Below, one piece after another: positions 14,101 through 61,252 of a stretch of 64,000 bases of DNA. Origin of the DNA: a virus. The stretch is from the IMG/VR virus record IMGVR_UViG_3300010389_000001, positions 168,534 to 232,533 of that record; one strand, written 5' to 3'. Numbering within the stretch: position 1 is the stretch's first letter; the number at the start of each line of letters is the position of its first letter. Under the pieces are notes generated by a model. It did not search any database. It saw nothing but the letters and a program-made list of their open reading frames with translations, and was not told the origin of the DNA. The position numbers and the translations under genes are program-made.

Positions 14101-14406
14101 TCAGGGTTCGTAGAGGACGAGGAGATCTCAATTATATTCATCAGGGATTTCGTAAAGAGAGCGTTGAGAAACTCTCTTGCAGGCTTTATCGGCGGAGTCC
14201 AGAACCCCGACGTAAATCTTCTTATATCACAGAGAACAAGATCAATTATGTCAGGGCTGGTAAGCCAGGGCCTCGTAACCGTCTTTGACAACATTAAGGT
14301 TGAGCAAGATAAGGTTGACCCAAGGCAGATAAATGTGTTCCTCCGATTTACACCGGCGTACCCCATTAACTACGTATTCATCGACATTGAGGTCGGCATA
14401 ATCTAA
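11131..14406 (+). CDS. Contractile tail sheath protein, enlarged
   Basis: The sheath polymer surrounds the tail tube and contracts to drive it through the host envelope. The N-terminus (about residues 4-41, IPGVSGFIQPGAFARDR then a glycine-rich strand) and especially the C-terminal domain (about 1000-1091, with IRDFVKRALRNSLAGFIGG and the closing beta strands) match the conserved sheath core. At 1091 residues it is far longer than many sheath proteins (roughly 400-700). The extra ~700 residues (about 50-800) are acidic, beta-rich and probably form domains exposed on the outer tail surface. The upstream GGAGG ribosome binding site is strong. A terminator hairpin directly follows, which suits a highly expressed transcript. 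Confidence 0.9.
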   Translation: MANIPGVSGFIQPGAFARDRVISRGVSIPGGIRIVCIMGEGLREETIIESAAGLGQDGSADCSPTGSADGRFFRLQNWPVVSGRTELRLNGTLLFGKEEEIDASGLASPFDFRLDPETGCIELRGASIGDQDGKGFSASSSNIGTGIIVENDDCDPLVTLDILDDSAPSERWTIKCVSVVRDSNGDPIPGLSTFTATGSVSGQIYDDSGAPITFTSGYFTSNAGAVSGNVSECDDGFTVAYGDISGSAFPQGLVKIREGDTSLDTSNTFIVPGADLVSQGQALPGDFLCLDGYAGHEIESIDYDGSDTTITVISDSLGPADPAWGEEPDDALDWTIKATNILIDDDSVAHDEITGEPASEGSFSSGDIGKTVLICPGGAFGGGRFVITDVTSTRRVRLVSLEDDSVSFEDLEGLGATGLGATGLTFHLLQNNGLLLLGIQEGGTAFEVGDKFFVDVSSRALAQGDNLVAKYIYELDLNDPQFFTEANDLFLKHGLVSEENTLSLGAQLALENGAPGVLAVQCKPAVPRRTSVTLLEERDSLGNGGFSACYDAGTESADACEVDDLRFVIPRPTEGLRNGRPDPDSRVNIFVVRDGAETQVFPNKVAFYNSQLETDIQQGQWIASSDNAFSYTIVNSETDILASGDNGTLDVESGREYFTTPEIDFDGANVGDVIVITSMEDASGTVYTSVEEISEQLFGVALLVPSVELLIDSVQDDSLVYVSAENGETLNLLSSYSDIQFFVKDPANTNADDASLLLHRDLVSSGVIREGDGIRISYVDENDADFFDTNWFEALEALEASEAQIVVPLPNQAISSIFRATVNHCENMSSIVNRKERVAFIGAQRGVTPAALIGTEEVAVEDIGIIEGIQGDDPEEVLAGNTEDLVNFKLSDNYTSNRCVYLYPDEIVRNVNGTNVSLHGFYAAAAAAGYLSARQNVAIPLTNKVLSGFSLTRDKIFRPIIQNQLGAVGATLLQPVAGGGRVLAGRTTSQSGFVEDEEISIIFIRDFVKRALRNSLAGFIGGVQNPDVNLLISQRTRSIMSGLVSQGLVTVFDNIKVEQDKVDPRQINVFLRFTPAYPINYVFIDIEVGII

Positions 14407-14429
14407 AAAAACATTCCATATTTTTGGAT

Positions 14430-14462
14430 CCCCCCGGTACAATAGTGCCAGGGGGTTTTTTT
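14430..14462 (+). terminator. Rho-independent terminator after the sheath gene
   Basis: A run of Cs (14430-14435) pairs with GGGGG (14451-14455), with A14450 bulged. An inner stem GGTAC (14436-14440) pairs with GTGCC (14445-14449), with one G-T wobble and a four-base AATA loop. Seven Ts follow (14456-14462). This is a classic intrinsic terminator. Its right arm and T-tract overlap the ribosome binding site and start codon of the next gene. Confidence 0.85.
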
Positions 14463-16206
14463 GTTTTACGCAAAATGTTACGAATGCAATTCCAAGATGG
14501 AATATGCAAGAAAAAACGCTGCAGCTAGAGCTGAAAAAAACAAGATAGTATGCAAGACCTGTAAGAAAAGAAAAAAGGAAGCAAGAGAGAGGGCTTGCCC
14601 ATCTTGTAGTTGCCCTATAATATACAAGACATATGCCGGCTTTAAAAAGGGCGAGGAAAGTGATGCGCTATGCCCTTCTTGTGCAAAGCTTACACAATAT
14701 GAAGCTAGGCATTCAATTAAATGCTCAGAGTGTTCGGGGACACACTTTGTAAAGAGAGAAGAAACTTTAAAGAAAATGAGCAAAATGAGTCAGCCTTTTA
14801 TCTGCGGAAGCTGCAAGAAAAAGGCCAGACTAAGCATTGTTTACTCTAGAGATTGCGTAACTTGCGGTAAAAGCATAACTTATAAGAACAAATATAATTA
14901 TAATGCATCAATTAAAAGAAGCAAAAAAGCAAGGTGCGCTTCCTGCGCTCGCACGAATGGCTTCGTACTTCCCATGGAAAGGCCATGTCCAAAATGTAAT
15001 AAGATTATTCATTATAAAACAAAAGATAGCTGCGCGAGAGCCAATAAGCATGACTCGTTCTGCAAGTCCTGCGCACTGTCCGGAAGAATGCCTTCCGATC
15101 GAGCAATTGAGGCTGCGAGAAAAGCAAGGATCGGCAGAGTTGCCTCTCCTGAGGAGCTTAAAAGAAAGGAGGCAACTCTTCTTGAGAAATATGGGGCAAA
15201 AAGCTACCTTGGAACTGACGCTCACAGAAGGATGATGGTTGATTCTGGAGCGTGGAAAGACTATGACGGAAAAACAATAAAGCAAATAGCTAATGAAAAT
15301 GGTCTTCCAGAAAGCGTTCATTCTTCTCTATACAAATGGGTTGCAAGCTCTGATGAAATAAGCTATGATGATATAGCAGAATATTGCAGCAGTTATGAGA
15401 AGAAAATAAGCAACCTAGAAAATCTGGCGTCATTAGCCCTTGGCATCGATCATTTTAATAAAAAAATAAGTGAAGAATTGCCCTATAGGCCAGACTTTAA
15501 GATAAGTGATAAAATATTTTTAAATGTCGATGGCCTTTACTGGCATTCGGAACTTCACTCCGATAGGAAATATCATTTTGATATGAGGAAGAGTTATGAG
15601 GAAGCTGGCCTTAGGATAATTCAGTTCAGAGAAGACGAAGTTAATAAAAAAATGCATATTATCAAATCTATGATAGATAATGCTAGCGGACTTATTAAGA
15701 GTAAGATAGGCGCCAGAAAGTGTAAGATCGCCAAGCCTACGACCGATGAGGCAGAGTCTTTTCTGAGAGAGAACCACATCAAGGGCTACATTACATCGAG
15801 GCATTTGGGCTTATATTATAATGATCAGCTTGTTTCGCTAATGTCGTATAAGCTAAGAAAATCATATGTAAAAATAGACAGATTCTGCTCTAAGGCCGGC
15901 TGGTCTGTGCAGGGAGGGTTCTCTAGATTATTCAAAGAGGTTGAGAGGCAAAATGATCAAGATCTGCCGATTCATTATTGGGTTGATCTCAGATATGGCA
16001 CTGGAGACTTTCTTTTAAGCCAAGGCTTTAAACTTGAAAAAGAAACCCTTGGATGGGAATGGACCGACTTTAAAAAGACTCATAATAGGCTTAAGTGCAG
16101 GGCAAATATGGATGATAGATGCCTCTCTCAGTCGGAGCATGCAAAAGAGCTGGGATTATTTAAAATATATGATGCAGGCCAAAGACTTTACATCAAAAAT
16201 AAATAA
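14461..16206 (+). CDS. Free-standing homing endonuclease (zinc-ribbon array plus Vsr-like nuclease)
   Basis: The product has 581 residues. Five tandem four-cysteine zinc ribbons occupy residues 6-204: C6/C9/C31/C34, 46/49/71/74, 88/91/115/118, 132/135/159/162 and 176/179/201/204, presumably for DNA binding. A nuclease domain of the Vsr-like/EDxHD type follows (about 330-395): PDF at 344-346, DGLYWHSE with D357 and H362, H372, and E391/E393. A C-terminal domain (about 425-570) carries HYWVDLRYGTGDF and is common in phage endonucleases of this kind. The gene sits between sheath and tube genes that are normally adjacent, as expected for an intruding homing gene. The TTG start is the only codon before C6 and follows an in-frame stop at 14443. 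Confidence 0.8.
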   Translation: MFYAKCYECNSKMEYARKNAAARAEKNKIVCKTCKKRKKEARERACPSCSCPIIYKTYAGFKKGEESDALCPSCAKLTQYEARHSIKCSECSGTHFVKREETLKKMSKMSQPFICGSCKKKARLSIVYSRDCVTCGKSITYKNKYNYNASIKRSKKARCASCARTNGFVLPMERPCPKCNKIIHYKTKDSCARANKHDSFCKSCALSGRMPSDRAIEAARKARIGRVASPEELKRKEATLLEKYGAKSYLGTDAHRRMMVDSGAWKDYDGKTIKQIANENGLPESVHSSLYKWVASSDEISYDDIAEYCSSYEKKISNLENLASLALGIDHFNKKISEELPYRPDFKISDKIFLNVDGLYWHSELHSDRKYHFDMRKSYEEAGLRIIQFREDEVNKKMHIIKSMIDNASGLIKSKIGARKCKIAKPTTDEAESFLRENHIKGYITSRHLGLYYNDQLVSLMSYKLRKSYVKIDRFCSKAGWSVQGGFSRLFKEVERQNDQDLPIHYWVDLRYGTGDFLLSQGFKLEKETLGWEWTDFKKTHNRLKCRANMDDRCLSQSEHAKELGLFKIYDAGQRLYIKNK

Positions 16207-16250
16207 TTTATATGAATATATTTTTGATGTAACAAATATCATTTTCTATT

Positions 16251-16256
16251 TATAAT
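16251..16256 (+). promoter_or_regulatory. Candidate -10 element (TATAAT) upstream of the tail tube gene
   Basis: The 101-base gap between the homing endonuclease gene and the tube gene contains TATAAT about 51 bases before the tube ATG. TTGATG at 16224-16229 is too far away (21-base spacer) to be a good -35. The gap is very AT-rich, so chance occurrence is likely. A promoter here would let the tube be expressed independently of the terminator at 14430-14462. Confidence 0.25.
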
Positions 16257-16307
16257 TATTTTATAGTAGATAAGCCTAGTTTCATCAACCTTAATTAGGA
16301 GAATATA

Positions 16308-16937
16308 ATGGCCGAATATCCAAATACAGGCACCATTTTTGATAATCCAGATAATGGCAGTAAAACAAGAACTGGCCTATCTACTCAGATTGTCGTCTAT
16401 GTAGAGGGCGAGCCGGTTGGTGCGATACAGTCCTTTAACGAAAGTCAGAACCGAAGCGTAAAGCCTATTTCTGAGGTCGGAACGGATGGCGTTATTGAGC
16501 TGGTGCCTAACCAGCCTGCAAAGATATCGCTTACCATCAACCGAATCGTGTTCGATGGCCTTTCTCTTCCGGAGGCTTTCTCAAGAGGATATCGCAACAT
16601 CCACGCTCAGAGAATACCTTTTGACATCGTTGTAATAGATAAATTTACTGGAGACGGAGATAACGCCGTAGTTACAACTTACCATAACTGCTTCTTTACG
16701 CAGCTTGGAAAGAACTACACTGTAAATGATTATACGATTCAAGAGAACGCAAGCGTTACAGCAGAGTTTATGTCATCCACGAGAGCTGGGGGCCCCGTTG
16801 CCGATAGCCAGGGCGTATCTGGCGCCAGAGAGATTCCTGGAAGACAGACAGATTCAGTGGAGCAGTCTGCAGATACCGGCGTAAGACGCGGCCCGCTTGA
16901 CTTCTCAGGGCTAATCTCCGCTGCATACGGCAGCTAA
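16308..16937 (+). CDS. Tail tube protein
   Basis: The product has 209 residues. The tube polymer is the inner channel through which DNA passes. Identification rests on position (second structural gene after the sheath, before the frameshifted chaperone and tape measure), size close to the usual 140-210, and a beta-rich pattern typical of tube proteins: an early strand TQIVVYVEGEPVGAIQSF (about 25-42), a middle strand pair around KISLTINRIVF, and later NCFFTQLGKNYTVNDYTI (about 127-144). The C-terminal ~45 residues are polar and probably flexible. AGGAG upstream gives a strong ribosome binding site, and a strong terminator follows the stop. Confidence in the role is high, though I see no family-defining signature. 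Confidence 0.8.
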   Translation: MAEYPNTGTIFDNPDNGSKTRTGLSTQIVVYVEGEPVGAIQSFNESQNRSVKPISEVGTDGVIELVPNQPAKISLTINRIVFDGLSLPEAFSRGYRNIHAQRIPFDIVVIDKFTGDGDNAVVTTYHNCFFTQLGKNYTVNDYTIQENASVTAEFMSSTRAGGPVADSQGVSGAREIPGRQTDSVEQSADTGVRRGPLDFSGLISAAYGS

Positions 16938-16960
16938 TTTTAGCAATAAATATTTACTGA

Positions 16961-16988
16961 AAAGCACCATCTTAGCATGGTGCTTTTT
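16961..16988 (+). terminator. Rho-independent terminator after the tail tube gene
   Basis: AAAGCACCAT (16961-16970) is perfectly complementary to ATGGTGCTTT (16977-16986), with a six-base loop and a T-tract at 16984-16988. It lies 24 bases after the tube stop and before the chaperone gene, and would raise tube mRNA relative to the downstream chaperone and tape measure genes. Confidence 0.9.
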
Positions 16989-16998
16989 CTTTATGCGG

Positions 16999-17004
16999 TA
17001 TAAT
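16999..17004 (+). promoter_or_regulatory. Candidate -10 element (TATAAT) upstream of the tail chaperone gene
   Basis: A perfect TATAAT sits just after the terminator and 19 bases before the ATG, a spacing almost the same as upstream of the sheath gene. No clear -35 is seen, since that region is occupied by the terminator stem. AGGAG at 17014-17018 is the ribosome binding site. Re-initiation right after a terminator would be logical. Confidence 0.4.
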
Positions 17005-17023
17005 ATCCTAAATAGGAGTAACT

Positions 17024-17509
17024 ATGCCAAAGGTTAGAGCCAGTTTGTCTGATGGTAACCGCATGGAAGAAATGCAGGAGCTTTTATCACCAGAGGCTAA
17101 CGCCGAAGAGGATAGCGGTGATGTGGATCCCGCCAAAATTTCTGACCTAAAGAACCTGATTCTTCTAGGCAAATTAACAGAGACTGTAAGGATTGGTGGG
17201 TTTAGCTTTGAGCTATCAACTTTATCTGCAAATGAGCAAGCAGAAGTAATGAAGACTCTAATGAAGGCAGAAGAAATGGATAGGGTTCTGCATTCAAAGT
17301 CTATTGCAATCTCCTATTGTATAAAGAAAATAAACTCTGTACCCCTCTCTGAGCTTGCCGCTGAGCACCCCGGCGATAGCGAGGATGAAAGAAGAGTTGC
17401 CTTTGTACTGGATATGCAGACCACTTTGGTTGAGAAGATATTTACAGAGTATGAAGCTCTAGTCGCAAGGTCAGGACAAGAAGTAGGTTTTGATTCTGTA
17501 AAAAAATAG
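17024..17509 (+). CDS. Tail assembly chaperone, zero-frame product (G-like)
   Basis: This 161-residue product is made when ribosomes do not shift. It begins with an acidic disordered region (about residues 15-40) and continues with a helical domain (about 45-160). Its position between the tube and tape measure genes is that of the gpG/gpE-type chaperones that coat the tape measure protein during tail assembly. The reading frame ends in GTA AAA AAA TAG, a slippery site directly on the stop, and an uninterrupted -1 frame follows. This short form should be the major product. Confidence 0.8.
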   Translation: MPKVRASLSDGNRMEEMQELLSPEANAEEDSGDVDPAKISDLKNLILLGKLTETVRIGGFSFELSTLSANEQAEVMKTLMKAEEMDRVLHSKSIAISYCIKKINSVPLSELAAEHPGDSEDERRVAFVLDMQTTLVEKIFTEYEALVARSGQEVGFDSVKK

Positions 17510-17943
17510 CAGCGGAGCCATACCACAGGCTCCGCTGGAAGTTATGCAAAATATGGGGCTGCAAAGTTGATGATCCAATCTTTAATGATATCAACAATGC
17601 CCAGTGGGCTTGGTACGCAAGCATGGTTGCTGCAGATCAGAAGGAAACTTATGATCTTTATCTAGACTTCTCTGAATATTTGGCTTCTTTCTGGAATGCA
17701 GAGGCTGTGCAAAAGATTAAGAGTTCAAGAGTAAGGCCCGAAGATCAAGGGTTCGCATCCGATGAGGAATTCGAAGAACAGGTGCTAACAGGAGCATTTA
17801 AGGAAAATGATATTGTTAAGGCTATAAAAGATAAGTATAAAAATACTAATTTAGCTGATAATAATATGGGCTCCAAGGAAAGAACGAGAAGACTGCCGAA
17901 GGACCTATCTGGGATCAGGGATTTATTCGGAGATAGCGACTAA
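17024..17943 (+). CDS. Tail assembly chaperone, -1 frameshift fusion product (GT-like)
   Basis: A -1 shift on seven adenines (17500-17506) joins the 161-residue first frame to the -1 frame from 17506 to the stop at 17941-17943, giving about 306 residues. The joined part reads IAAEPYHRLRWKLCKIWG and continues without a stop through 17623. That position would otherwise look like an independent ATG start, but it has no ribosome binding site. The extension (about 145 residues) has aromatic-rich helices (NNAQWAWYAS) and a basic, acidic-ended tail. In other phages the G and GT proteins together chaperone the tape measure, whose gene follows here with a TAATG overlap. The ratio of the two products is expected to be set by the slip site and hairpin. 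Confidence 0.85.
17500..17537 (+). promoter_or_regulatory. Programmed -1 ribosomal frameshift signal
   Basis: The heptamer A AAA AAA (17500-17506) is in the exact X-XXY-YYZ phase with the zero frame and is followed at once by the TAG stop. A ten-base-pair perfect hairpin starts three bases later: CAGCGGAGCC (17510-17519) pairs with GGCTCCGCTG (17528-17537), with an 8-base loop. No T-tract follows, so the hairpin is not a terminator. The -1 frame is open across the whole junction. Confidence 0.9.
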
Positions 17944-19862
17944 TGGCATTGGATAAAGAAAATCTGAAAGCATTAGGCCAAGGGTTAGATGCATTTACAA
18001 ATTCTGTAAAAACTGCCGAAAAAGCTTTGGGGGATTTTTTCGCCCTAGGCTCCAGAACCCCCAACAGCCTTGGGCCTGCGACTCCTGCTTTAAATGATCT
18101 GAAAAAAGCAATTCAGGGTGTGGGGCAAATCGCAACCGGTACTGCCGGCGCCATCGACGCAATGATTGACGGGCTGGGTTCTGGAGGCTCTGCTATTGGA
18201 GGCTTTTCTGGTGCCCTAGTCGACCTTACGTCGGGACTGGTAAATACGCTTCCTGAGGCTATAGTCGGTATGGCGGAGGTTGTCGCCGGAGCGTTTGATG
18301 GCCCAACGAAAGATCTAAGAGCTTTTGATGCGAGCATATTCGAGGTGGGCAAGAGATTCGGTGATCCAATTCAGTCATCAAAAGATTTTGCTGATGCAAT
18401 AAAAGCTATACCGGCGTCGGAATTTGGGCAGGCACTGTCATTAACAAGAGATGAGTTAAGTAAATTTTATAGCAGAGCGGCTCAATATAATTTGACTCAG
18501 GAGATGTTAAACGAAACTGTGTCAACAGGCATTGGGGAAACAAACCTTCTTGCTGCGGCTTATGCTTTTGGAGAGTCTGCAGCGATGGGTGCCGGTGAAA
18601 CAATGCGCCTGTTAGATACAATCATAAATAAACAGGGTGTATCGGCTGGTGAGGCGGCAGAGATGCTTGGCGTTTACTCAGGAGTCGCAAAAGAAGTTGG
18701 CATAGCGATAGACGATGTTGCTTCAACGCTTAATTCGGCAGTATCCCAGTTCTCTAAGCTTGGAATATCTGCAGATTTTGGTGCGCCAATCCTAGAGGGG
18801 TTCGGAAGAGTCGTCAAAGATATGGGGCTTGGTATAGATGAGGCAACCTCCTTGACCCAGGGGCTTGCCAGCGCACTTGGAGGGCTCACAACTGATTATG
18901 CGAATGCTTATGTCATGTTTCAAAGGGGAGGGCTAGATATCGGAGCGGGTGGGGGCGCCCTTGGGGCTTCTATAGGGCTTCAGGCAGAGCTGCTTAGGGC
19001 TGAGCAGACCGGTGATCAGGCGGCGATAGGTGCTCAGCTCGTCGGAGCGATGAAGGATACTCTGGCATCGTTTGGCGGAGGAAACATAGTTACTGTTTCT
19101 GAGGCCGCAGAGAGCCCGGAGCTACAAACTCAATTTTATACCCAGCAGCAGCTTCTTATGAATCAGTTTGGGATAAGGGATCAAGCTTCTGCGACGAGAA
19201 CTCTCGAACTCTTGGCCGAGATTGATGATGCAACACGATCAGGCAATATGGAGGCCAAAGAAGAGCTTCAGAAACAACTTGAAAATGAGGTAGAAGGAAG
19301 AGATAAGACTCTGGATGTTTTGGAGCAAATAAACAGAGAGATTGCGGCTCAAAGTAATCTGCTGGCTATTGCTGCCAGAGAGGACCTTGAAGCCTTATCA
19401 AATCTTGGTTTTGATATAGCAAAAGAATTTGCTTCGCCAAAAATTGCGGAGGCCGGATCGGCTGGAGTGGGGGCCATAGAGTCGGGAGGGGATTCGTTCC
19501 AGAGAGTTTTAGATTCAATAAGGAGCTTCTTTAGCTCCGAAGGTGCAGAGGGCAAGCTGGTGCAGGAGGTCGAAAAAAGGGGTGCGATTGCAAAGGCGGC
19601 TCAGGAATCAACTCCCGATGTAAATCTTACGAATAAGGAATTATCCGCCATATCGGCGAGAGTTGCCTTGGCGGACAAGCAGATAAGCAAGGAAGAATTT
19701 AAGGCTATTTTTAAAGAGGCTATTATAGAGGGCATTGCTTCTGGCGACAGGGACTTGTCAAATCTAAATGTTACAATTGATTTTGCAAACGAAGAAATGA
19801 GGAAGGTATTTAAGGGCGTTGGAGCTGCCGTTAAAGAAATTAGTGAAGTTGGGGGTCCATAA
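17943..19862 (+). CDS. Tape measure protein
   Basis: The product has 639 residues. It follows the frameshifted chaperone gene, the usual place of the tape measure that sets tail length. It is rich in glycine and alanine with long helical stretches. A hydrophobic G/A-rich region at about residues 58-120 could insert into the host membrane during DNA entry, and a charged helix around 425-480 (EEIDDATRSGNMEAKEELQKQ-type) resembles coiled coil. If the usual 1.5 angstrom per residue rule for tape measures holds, the tail would be about 95 nm, modest for a phage with such large baseplate proteins. The start codon overlaps the upstream stop, and the stop overlaps the next ATG (both TAATG). Confidence 0.8.
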   Translation: MALDKENLKALGQGLDAFTNSVKTAEKALGDFFALGSRTPNSLGPATPALNDLKKAIQGVGQIATGTAGAIDAMIDGLGSGGSAIGGFSGALVDLTSGLVNTLPEAIVGMAEVVAGAFDGPTKDLRAFDASIFEVGKRFGDPIQSSKDFADAIKAIPASEFGQALSLTRDELSKFYSRAAQYNLTQEMLNETVSTGIGETNLLAAAYAFGESAAMGAGETMRLLDTIINKQGVSAGEAAEMLGVYSGVAKEVGIAIDDVASTLNSAVSQFSKLGISADFGAPILEGFGRVVKDMGLGIDEATSLTQGLASALGGLTTDYANAYVMFQRGGLDIGAGGGALGASIGLQAELLRAEQTGDQAAIGAQLVGAMKDTLASFGGGNIVTVSEAAESPELQTQFYTQQQLLMNQFGIRDQASATRTLELLAEIDDATRSGNMEAKEELQKQLENEVEGRDKTLDVLEQINREIAAQSNLLAIAAREDLEALSNLGFDIAKEFASPKIAEAGSAGVGAIESGGDSFQRVLDSIRSFFSSEGAEGKLVQEVEKRGAIAKAAQESTPDVNLTNKELSAISARVALADKQISKEEFKAIFKEAIIEGIASGDRDLSNLNVTIDFANEEMRKVFKGVGAAVKEISEVGGP

Positions 19863-20821
19863 TGGAAGGAATAGGTAGACAGACAATAATTTTCTTTTTG
19901 CCAAATGATATGGACGCTTTTTTGAGCGATCAGAGTCCAAGCACAAATTCAAGCAGCTTAAGAGATGAGAATGTTGGGTGGTTTAAGACTCAGCTTTATA
20001 TGAACCCTCAGAGCTTTGATATTAATGAAAAGAAATTTATTAAATCAGATCTAACAAAGGGCGGATTCGTAACCCAGTATTGGGGAGAGGATCTAACCAG
20101 AATAAGCATTGCTGGTACAACAGGTTCTTCTGGAATAGAGGGGATCAATGTTTTGCGCTCTATTTATCGTCATGAGCAGGGACAGTATAGAAAGCTGCTA
20201 GAAGATAGAAGAAATAAGCTGGCAGAAGAAGCCGCCACCATACAGGCGCAAGCAATAGCAGAGGCTCAGTCAAGAGAAGGCATCGGAGGATTCTTTGTTA
20301 ACGCTGCAGACTTGCTTACAGGAGGAGCTTTTACTCAGACGGTAGACGGTCTTCAAAATTCAGTTGAGCTAATAAGCAATGCTATAAATGGAGAATCTCA
20401 GATAGAAGGAAATACGTTTAGATCAATACCCACTCTTGCTGCACTTGCAACAAATGTAGATATGTATTATCAGGGCGAGTTTTTTAGGGGATATTTTGAG
20501 TTTTTTAACGTAAGAGAAAACTCTAATGAGCCGGGACATTTTAATTACAGCACAAGCTTTGTTGTTACGAGAAGAACGGGAAGAAGAAGTAACTTTATGC
20601 CATGGCATAGAAATCCTTTGGATGCTAGCGGAGTAGCACAAATGAGCAAGGGAGTTACGGAGGCAAAGGGAGATCCCCTGACGGGCGGTGATAACTTCTC
20701 CTTCCCCATTGGCGGATATGAGGAGGAAAATGCAAGACCGGAAGTTTCTATCACTCAGGATGTAGAAGCAGAAATAGATTTAGAAATATCCCTGCCGCAA
20801 AATAGGCCCGGCCAAGGCTAA
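19862..20821 (+). CDS. Putative tail-tip or baseplate hub-adjacent protein
   Basis: The product has 319 residues. The N-terminal half contains MNPQSFDINEKKF and GGFVTQYWGEDLTRISIAGTTG (about residues 43-85 together), a pattern of phage tail proteins at the tube-baseplate boundary in which an NP-x-S strand is followed by a W-G-x-x-L-x-x-I-x-I-x-G-x-T motif. A charged alanine-rich helix follows (about 97-140). A later FxGYFxFF/TSFVVTRR region (about 200-240) repeats the strand character. It lies between the tape measure and the hub gene, where such proteins connect the tube to the baseplate hub. I cannot assign a precise homologue. Confidence 0.5.
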   Translation: MEGIGRQTIIFFLPNDMDAFLSDQSPSTNSSSLRDENVGWFKTQLYMNPQSFDINEKKFIKSDLTKGGFVTQYWGEDLTRISIAGTTGSSGIEGINVLRSIYRHEQGQYRKLLEDRRNKLAEEAATIQAQAIAEAQSREGIGGFFVNAADLLTGGAFTQTVDGLQNSVELISNAINGESQIEGNTFRSIPTLAALATNVDMYYQGEFFRGYFEFFNVRENSNEPGHFNYSTSFVVTRRTGRRSNFMPWHRNPLDASGVAQMSKGVTEAKGDPLTGGDNFSFPIGGYEEENARPEVSITQDVEAEIDLEISLPQNRPGQG

Positions 20822-20851
20822 AATAATACAAAAGGTTAAGTAAAATACAAT

Positions 20852-23800
20852 ATGTCCTATGAATTGTCAAAAAGAATATATCAGACATGGCAACAAGCTA
20901 AATCTAATATAATAAACGGAGTTAGCCCGGCTTATCTCGATGTAAATTCTCATCCGCTAATTAACACTGGGGCTTCAATATTTTTTAATCAAGATCAATC
21001 TGTATCTGTAACTCCAGATACAAGAAATCACATTGCTATGTCTCCCGAGGCAACTGTTCTGATTAAAAAGAAGGTATTCTCGACCCTTAAAGGATCCAAC
21101 GATTTAAGGTTCATGGACAAAACCGAGAAGATGCTATTGAGGGCTACGAAGGCTCTTTTTGCCTACAAGGTTCAGCAGATCAGGGCTTATGAAAGTCTAA
21201 CAAAGTTTGACAGCTTTTTTCAAAATAATAACTCTTATAGCCTTTCTTTGCTCTCATCTTTTATAAATGAGTCAAGCGCGATATTAAATGCAGATGAAAA
21301 CTTAAAGCAAAATTTAGCAGAAGAAGGCACGGGATTCTTTGATGACTTAGCGAACATCCTATCTTCGAGTAGCTCTGTTGAAAATTTAACCGCAGTCAAC
21401 GATGATATTATATCTATCCTGAAAAGAAATGCATTCTCAGAGGATGCTGGATTGACCACTTGGATTGTAGATCCTGAGAATCCCGAGAATTACATAATAG
21501 GTCCTGGAACTGGCGTTATAGAGCTAACTATGTTTCGTGGATTCAGAACATCGGTAGGCAATGACTCATCTCCTTCTTCTGCAAGTTTGAATATAACTTA
21601 TCCGTATAGAATTGGAAATGTGTCCGAAGAAGATATTGAGATTGCAATTCAGGAGGCTCTAAAAGGCACGCTTGGGCTATTCAATGAGCTGCTGAACGGA
21701 GGAATATCAAGCCAATCGCTTGCCGGCCAGACAGCTTATGTAGATGGAGCCTCTATTATTTCTTCTGCATTTGAGCTTTCAAACGAAAGTTTATTTAATA
21801 CTGCAATAGACACTGGATACATAAGAGAAAGACTTAGAACGTTCTATCTGGGGAAGCCATTTATTAGCGCTTCTGATATAGTTCATTTTTACATAAAGGG
21901 AAATAGAACTTTTACTGATTTCTCTTCTGAAAATTCAACTTATTCTGAGGAAACAACCGAATCTCCATTTGACGAAGAGTACATGGAGATAGATGAGACC
22001 ATCCTAAAGGCTGAGCATCAGCTTTACACCGCTGGCGCCATAGATTATGAGAAATATAAAAAACTCAGAAGAAGGCAAGATAATTCTTTTGGAATGATTC
22101 ATGTGTATGCGGGTTTAGTCACAAATACTTCCGAATCCTTCTCGGGTGGTTTCTGGGATCTATCGGTAAGCATAACAGACAATATGTCTTGGTTAAAGTG
22201 GAGTAGATTTCAAACTGAGCCGCCGATATCTGACCCCAAGAATGTTCTTGAAGACCCACTTACTCCATTTGAGTTTGAGAAAGATCCACAGGGAAAAATT
22301 ATTAGCTCAAGCAGAGATCTTCTTTATGAAAACAAGCAGCTGCTTCAGTCTGGCTTATTGAGCTATGATTCCGGACTGCTTGCCGGCCAAAATGCTTCGG
22401 AAGGAAACCTTATTCAGGGGCAATACAATGGAATAGGATCGCTGCGCGGCAAAAAGGTAATGCAGCATCCAAGCGGTTTTGTTTATAGATGGAAGACAGG
22501 CATAATCACTGCTACTGCAGGTTTTGCTGCGACTGATCCTTCAGAGCAAAATAGAAGCCAATCTAATATTTGGGGGCAGAACTATCAATTGACAGTAACA
22601 AATACTGTCTTAAACAACCTGGATATTCCAAATATACTAAGCATATTAATTGTTGGACAGCCTTATAATATAGAGACTTTTATTGAACAAGCTTATACTG
22701 CTCACAATATTTCAGACAGATCAACTCGATTACAGAATAGGGACGCTCTGACTGGAGTTTTGGATGTTATCCGAAAGCAAAATGTTTACTATGGCAATTT
22801 TCATCCATATAGAATGCTAAGCATGAGTGTTGCTACAACCCAAAGAATGCTAAACAATGCTGGTAACAGAGATGATGCAAATAATAATATTGAAGTCCTC
22901 CAGAGAAAGAAAAGGGAAATCCGCAGTAGGATAAGAGCCTTGGAGGGAGGGCAGTCTGTAACTCCGATTATTGAGTCACTTAATAGGGAGATTGAGACAA
23001 TCGATGCCGCTCTTAGGGAGCAGGTAAAAGTTGCGGTTAATTCGGAGAGGGCATTAACATCAGAGGATAGGGTGGGGATACAAATAAGTCTTGGGGGCTC
23101 CACAAACTTACCTCTATACGATAACGAAGACGAAAATAACGACGTAACTAGAGCGATGATGCTTGTAGGTGCTCAAAGAAGAATCGAAGATGTAAGATTA
23201 AATAGGGATAGGAATTTATTTGTTGTTTCGGATCAGTATGACTCTGCTGATATACGCCCATTCGTTTTAAATCTAAATAAAAGTGGATGGAGATTATTTG
23301 AGGGCAAATATCAGGATGTTTGGCAGATGTGCAACCAGGCATCTAACTATTTGGAACTAGAATTTTTTGCGAATTCGCAGGGCCACCTTGAGTTTAGACC
23401 TCCGCTTTGGAATAGAATTCCTCTAACAATTTTAAAAGAAGCGATAATAAAGCAAGAATCTGAAGATGTAGAGGTTATTCCAAGATTTATTACAGACTTA
23501 TTCAATACTCGAATCGAAGCACTATATCTTCAAGTACATACTCAAAATGTAAAGATTGTATTGGCAGCCCTGATGCTTGGAAGGTATCCTGACAATACCC
23601 TTATACCGAATGTTAAGTCAACTGGAGCGAGATCTTTAACATTCTTTGGCGTAGAGCTTAATGACCAAAAGGGCGTTAATAAAGCTGTAAATAATGTTGG
23701 CAATTCCTTATCTGGCCTTCCGGAGGACTCCGCCCTTAGATTAAGGCAGACAAACTTTGAGACCAGCGCCAATACAAAGCTTGGCCAGGCATTTGGAGAA

Positions 23801-60316: not shown

Positions 60317-61252
60317 ATGTCAAAAAGATATATTATAGCAGATTGGCTAGTGCATGGCGGTCATCAATATGAGTTTTTTAAAACTGGGCATGACTTCTTC
60401 TGCGCTAACCCGGATGGCTCCGCGCCTGATCCAAAGTCATTGGGCCGACCGATAAATGAAAATGTGAAGTATGTAAAACAAAGCGCTCTTCAGGAAAAGA
60501 GGGTTTCCATTATAATGGTAAGAAGCCCTATTAAGGCAGAAAAGTACAATCGCCTTAGAGGAAAGTACGCCTTTAATAAGCCTCCTGGTATTGCGGTAGT
60601 GCAGACAACAAATCCTTTTGTTCCACCAAGATGGGTGCGATGCGTTGTGTGGAACTCTGAGCATTGTATGAAGTTACATTCTAAAGCAATCGGTTGGGCA
60701 AAGCACTTCTATATTCCGCACGGCTTTGATCCGAATGAATTTAGCAACCTGGGGCTGCAGAGAAATGGCAAAATGCTCGGCGCAGGAAGCCTGTATAGGC
60801 AAAGAGACAATCTATTGGGTTATCGCGAATGGAGGTGGGTTGCAGATCGTCTAAAGGATCGCTGCGCCCTCATAGGGCACGGAAATGACGACCCAGAGTC
60901 AATAGGCAGCCACTCTCTCGATCGCTTGGTAAAGATATATAATGAGCATTCCGTATTTCTAAATACAACAAAACATAGTGCTATGCCGAGAACCAGAGCG
61001 GAGGCCATGATGTGCGGCATGCCGCTTGTTTCTACCGCAAATTATGGTATAGAAAAATATCTTATAAACGGAAAAAATTGTATTATAGCAAATGGCAAGC
61101 AGGATATGCTAGAGGGAGTGAAAAAGATATTGGACTCGCCTTCGATGCAGGAAGATTTTTCTTCGGCCTCAAGAGAAACTGCTTTAAAATACTTTCATAT
61201 AAATGAGTATCTTAATAGATGGAAACAAGTTTTTGAAGAGGCTTTAAAATGA
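60317..61252 (+). CDS. Glycosyltransferase, GT-B type
   Basis: The product has 311 residues and is shorter than its neighbours. The N-terminus has LVHGGHQYEFFKTG, a glycine-containing donor loop. A histidine-containing strand FYIPHGFDPNEF (about 130-141) aligns with the PHG-x-D motif of GT4 enzymes. The C-terminal motif is RTRAEAMMCGMPLVSTANYG (about 218-237); only the second of the two acidic residues of the family motif is obvious. The stop overlaps the next ATG (ATGA). Six bases separate it from the upstream gene, without a clear ribosome binding site. The acceptor is unknown. Confidence 0.75.
   Translation: MSKRYIIADWLVHGGHQYEFFKTGHDFFCANPDGSAPDPKSLGRPINENVKYVKQSALQEKRVSIIMVRSPIKAEKYNRLRGKYAFNKPPGIAVVQTTNPFVPPRWVRCVVWNSEHCMKLHSKAIGWAKHFYIPHGFDPNEFSNLGLQRNGKMLGAGSLYRQRDNLLGYREWRWVADRLKDRCALIGHGNDDPESIGSHSLDRLVKIYNEHSVFLNTTKHSAMPRTRAEAMMCGMPLVSTANYGIEKYLINGKNCIIANGKQDMLEGVKKILDSPSMQEDFSSASRETALKYFHINEYLNRWKQVFEEALK

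Follow-up and report, generated by a model that had tools for sequence, protein, structure and literature searches.

Frameshifting in the tail assembly chaperone genes of phages is well established (PMC5009743; PMC10885494), and it has been described in other myoviruses as well (PMC12846349). In lambda, a single gene lying immediately ahead of the tape measure gene yields both a short chaperone, gpG, and a rare -1 fusion, gpGT (PMC5009743). Nearer to the locus described here is Bacillus phage G, in which gp181/gp182 (NC_023719, JN638751) are entered as a joined CDS pair noted "tail assembly chaperone"; this annotation rests on a lambda-like (G/GT-type) frameshift, and when phage G proteins were examined by mass spectrometry, gp181/gp182 went undetected (PMC8570332).

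The stretch of DNA analysed here (the window; 64,000 nucleotides) comes from a 232.5-kb virus record and carries contractile-tail genes for the sheath, the probable tube, the chaperone, the probable tape measure protein, and the baseplate. Comparison of the chaperone locus with its relatives makes programmed -1 frameshifting at this junction very likely. The features concerned are collected in Table 1.

Table 1. Coordinates of the chaperone locus and its flanking genes within the window
Feature	Position	Strand	Remarks
Probable tail tube gene	16308..16937	+	28% identity to phage G gp180, E 2e-16; PHROG 985 virion structural protein
Zero-frame ORF, putative short tail assembly chaperone (G/TAC-N-like), 161 aa	17024..17509	+	Ends AAA AAA TAG
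Slippery heptamer A_AAA_AAA, X_XXY_YYZ phase	17500..17506	+	Last two codons before TAG; homologous heptamer in 59/60 junctions
-1 frame extension (T/TAC-C-like domain), 145 aa	17506..17943	+	Would be read only after the slip
Zero-frame stop TAG	17507..17509	+	Forms the 3-nt spacer to the hairpin
Hairpin, probable slip stimulator	17510..17537	+	10 bp, 8-nt loop; covariation and codon-preserving nulls
Probable tape measure gene, 639 aa	17943..19862	+	Position; weak TMP_3 Pfam match; same place and similar size in relatives

Reading frames, neighbours, and protein identity

The sequence-only reading had described seven adenines in X_XXY_YYZ phase on the last two sense codons before TAG, and the run was found in exactly that phase and place. 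It had also proposed a fusion of about 306 residues from a -1 frame open from 17506; the product of a -1 slip computes to 161 + 145 = 306 residues, beside the 161-residue protein, and the frame is in fact open already from 17494, behind a TGA at 17491-17493, as far as 17943. The stop of this frame and the start of the tape measure gene overlap by one base. The chaperone locus lies between the tail tube and tape measure genes, and the same order is seen in relatives. The position claimed for it was confirmed by the upstream homologue of gp180, the tube candidate of phage G (PMC8570332), by the position and weak TMP_3 match of the downstream gene, and by synteny.

Two other elements were noted in this region. 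A homing-endonuclease-like ORF (14461-16206; PHROG 3339, E 1e-38; TTG start) sits between the sheath and tube genes, and among the fetched relatives it has a clear homologue in L075 only, at 43% identity. The tube/chaperone intergenic region contains a perfect 11-bp inverted repeat (16960-16987) followed by T-rich sequence, which is terminator-like in form and which the consensus terminator scan does not list.

Neither protein of the window's chaperone locus had a match in PHROGs or Pfam. Among 22 homologues of the short domain, 10 matched PHROG 2792 and 9 matched PHROG 2992, both of which are tail assembly chaperones (best E 1.6e-5). The window's short protein, modelled with AlphaFold (pLDDT 77), had its best PDB match in the HK97 chaperone 2ob9, both by Foldseek (E 0.018) and by VIA-align (Z 8.0, rmsd 5.5 over 99 residues); this Z is borderline, at the edge of the range reached by unrelated models, and the next fold match was YqbN (3klu; Z 6.9). 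A search of the short-domain sequence against the PDB gave no match, and the -1 extension had neither a significant PDB fold match nor a solid database family match. Taken together, the Z score, the synteny, and the PHROG matches of the homologues make a convincing case for the short protein as a tail assembly chaperone with a predicted chaperone-like fold, tail assembly chaperone being the identity first assigned to it.

Selection on the -1 frame and a relative with separate genes

When the window was compared with three close relatives, the segment 17506-17622 showed 0.52-0.62 changes per synonymous site of the -1 frame against 0.09-0.17 per nonsynonymous site, and the same bases read in either of the other two frames were without this synonymous excess. 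Judged by these substitutions, purifying selection acts on the -1 frame beginning at the slip site, ahead of any usable start codon. Since no start codon of this frame occurs until the segment has ended, only ribosomes that enter from upstream translate it. The -1 direction first proposed holds as well. Furthermore, the alignment of homologous -1 proteins begins at the slip site, from the first residue, in all members, down to 23% identity.

These data bear on the alternative that the locus holds two genes, the second frame starting alone at ATG 17623 or by re-initiation. An ATG-initiated ORF of 106 aa does exist, and in one relative, L096, each part is a gene of its own and the second has an ATG start. 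However, protein-level selection in the window reaches upstream of 17623 to the slip site, the most conserved block of the extension (RLRW.LCKIW) lies 5' of any start codon, and the -1 frame contains no ATG, GTG, or TTG from 17494 to 17622, which together leave two independently started genes exceedingly improbable. Readthrough of the TAG was also considered and rejected: beyond the stop, the zero frame bears no mark of protein-level selection, many relatives use TAA, and TAG ends 7 of the 27 window ORFs examined, with no tRNA gene found in the window.

In L096 (2454-3316), no slip site stands at the end of the short protein (2454-2828), and the extension begins at ATG 2891. Homologues of the tube, chaperone, and tape measure genes flank the junction, and the locus is therefore an authentic syntenic one. 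Between the two parts, at 2833-2873, is a 13-bp perfect inverted repeat with a 15-nt loop, followed by a T run; we call it terminator-like from its look, because the terminator scan lists no site there, the 15-nt loop falling outside the pattern of the scan. This hairpin may set the ratio of the two products at the level of transcription. A search for close relatives of L096 returned only its own contig at high identity, leaving a single example. L096 demonstrates that separate genes can supply the two domains, and it shows an apparent lineage-specific switch. Separate genes without a slip site had been named beforehand as the arrangement that would speak against frameshifting; it was looked for and found in L096 only, a lone distant outlier that does not refute a slip in the window. 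T4-like phages have been proposed to use a non-frameshifting mechanism, according to the title of a 2022 Virology paper cited in PMC12846349.

Slip site and hairpin among relatives

The A7 heptamer alone is weak evidence, because 87 in-phase A/T heptamers of the X_XXY_YYZ form are spread over 26 genes of the window, one other of them adjoining a stop; its significance comes from its conservation. (At 61243-61252, an in-phase U_UUA_AAA stands directly before TGA, at the ATGA overlap of two glycosyltransferase-like genes; a -1 slip there would fuse the two, and the heptamer is probably a chance occurrence.) Relatives were gathered by three IMG/VR scans, which yielded many homologues, and 60 distinct junctions were compared. 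A tandem slippery heptamer, in phase and 0 or 3 nt 5' of the zero-frame stop, is present in 59 of these 60, a count taken over kin that does not equal the number of independent events. By class, the 59 divide into 31 with A_AAA_AAA, 11 with A_AAA_AAC, 2 with A_AAA_AAG, and 15 with U_UUA_AAA. All 15 junctions without an A-type heptamer carry U_UUA_AAA three bases upstream, then a sense codon, and then the stop; over the whole set, the stop adjoins the heptamer in 40/59 and a sense codon intervenes in 19/59. Slipperiness is thus kept while the letters change, the pattern expected from selection for frameshifting. No phage relative other than phage G was found among 50,697 phage records, and a genome scan returned no bacterial or prophage relatives. 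Synonymous recoding of the 59 junctions gave no signal of an upstream Shine-Dalgarno-like stimulator (mean z -0.29).

The heptamer classes also bear on whether the fusion could come from transcriptional slippage, in which RNA polymerase would gain or lose an A within the A7 run so that a minority mRNA encodes the fusion. A homopolymeric A run is present in the window and in about half of the relatives. A run of seven is short for slippage by bacterial RNA polymerase, however, and 15 junctions have U_UUA_AAA with no homopolymer, while 13 heptamers end in C or G. Both the X_XXY_YYZ phase and a covarying RNA stem would be needless under such a mechanism, which we regard as very improbable.

Another alternative is a stop-dependent slippage, in which the P-site tRNA-Lys alone would slip while TAG awaits release factor, with no tandem slip. 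The stop adjoins the heptamer here as in the 40 junctions above, A_AAA re-pairs perfectly, and an identical product would be expected. Against this, a sense codon separates heptamer and stop in the other 19 junctions, a tRNA-Asn in the P site of the A_AAA_AAC class could not re-pair well, and the whole X_XXY_YYZ pattern is conserved, beyond its last four bases; single-tRNA slippage is on balance unlikely. The sequence-only reading had suggested that termination itself may add to the pause. The stop does adjoin the slip site; as a contributor to pausing it is not needed in the family, in which a stop in the A site is, from the junctions compared, probably not required, and in the window it may contribute.

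The perfect ten-base-pair hairpin proposed three bases past the slip site was recovered in full, with the arms CAGCGGAGCC (17510-17519) and GGCTCCGCTG (17528-17537) forming 10 of 10 pairs. Its 3-nt spacer, the TAG itself, is shorter than the usual 5-9 nt between slip site and structure (PMC5009743), as had been remarked; the same stem position lies 6 nt away in the U_UUA_AAA relatives. Of 2,567 coding intervals across the window's first 28 kb, the 44 nt following the slip site fold with the lowest energy. Relative to synonymous recodings of the -1 frame, their folding has a z of -4.8, with none of 1,000 recodings folding as well, and all 10 stem pairs occur together in 0.03% of recodings. In a 23-row alignment, 80% of stem cells are paired, 5 pairs are changed on both sides (compensated stems include CAACGGAGCC/GGCTCCGTTG and CATCGGAGCC/GGCTCCGATG), and the covariation score is 0.289 versus 0.191 when shuffled, the stem outscoring all slid registers. 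Two extra pairs in L008 and L011 shrink the loop to 4 nt, which counts against loop pairing (a pseudoknot) in those two.

For the window and five close relatives, codon-preserving folding z values lie between -3.9 and -5.3, and they are moderate in many others; in L029-L035, phage G, and some mid-distance relatives the hairpin does not rise above the codon-preserving null. L101-type junctions have no significant stem either. Because the hairpin stands at the null level in these distant and mid-distance relatives, its role is not universal. Related phages had been expected to share the heptamer and to show compensatory stem changes: the first expectation held in 59/60 junctions, phage G included, and the second in close relatives only. 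From this distribution, the slip site is best read as an ancient core and the hairpin as a lineage-specific addition, a probable stimulator within this lineage set atop the older slip site.

The hairpin could instead be an intrinsic terminator of the minus strand (the stem and then CTATTTTTTT), unrelated to decoding. It has the textbook shape and is the strongest terminator-like match in 14300-20900. The gene-like ORFs of the region, however, are all on the plus strand, the U_UUA_AAA relatives have lost the T run while most of them keep a hairpin, and stem and loop are coding and under joint constraint. We consider a minus-strand terminator highly unlikely and retain the reading of the hairpin as a probable stimulator of the slip.

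Proposed mechanism and comparison with known systems

Ribosomes starting at 17024 would arrive at A_AAA_AAA with a tRNA-Lys paired to each AAA codon, and the GC-rich hairpin just ahead would slow them; its lowest pairs are probably melted at the moment of the slip. In some ribosomes both tRNAs would re-pair one base upstream, the TAG would be skipped, and reading would resume at ATA (17506) and continue to 17943. We infer both the slip itself and a rate at which much 161-residue protein and little 306-residue fusion would be made. By analogy with lambda gpG/gpGT, the short domain may coat the tape measure protein while the extension recruits tube subunits. That programmed -1 frameshifting makes the chaperone fusion in this manner is, from the comparative evidence, highly probable. 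A further proposal, which we regard as speculative and rather doubtful, is that a compact element of slip site, adjoining stop, and close hairpin sets the short:long ratio through release-factor competition together with the hairpin, and that the L096 lineage swapped this decoding switch for two genes separated by a terminator-like hairpin.

The locus provides a correct gene model, a 306-aa fusion, for large uncultivated phages of a group in which family libraries often miss the chaperone genes, the window's own included. It also provides a natural series in which the same protein junction occurs with four heptamers, with and without the stem, and with and without an adjoining stop, and which lends itself to disentangling the effects of slip site, stem, and stop codon.

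Among known systems, lambda is a siphophage with a different heptamer, G_GGA_AAG, and is likened to the window by arrangement. The HK97 chaperone (2ob9) and B. subtilis YqbN (3klu) are the best fold matches of the short domain, but at only 12% and 5% aligned identity. The TAC-N/TAC-NC pairs of Vandenendeviridae (phage Adele) and Andersonviridae are, like the locus described here, myovirus chaperones with a -1 programmed frameshift, although they use a conserved GTTTTT slip motif in place of the A/U-A heptamers (PMC12846349). Phage G differs in having no significant hairpin, only about 25% identity, and a much larger tape measure gene; its gp181/gp182 are nonetheless homologous in both domains, lie between tube candidates and the tape measure gene, and carry the slip site A_AAA_AAC directly before TAG. 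The mechanism is well known in phages, and the junction described here is a clean additional example of it and no surprise.
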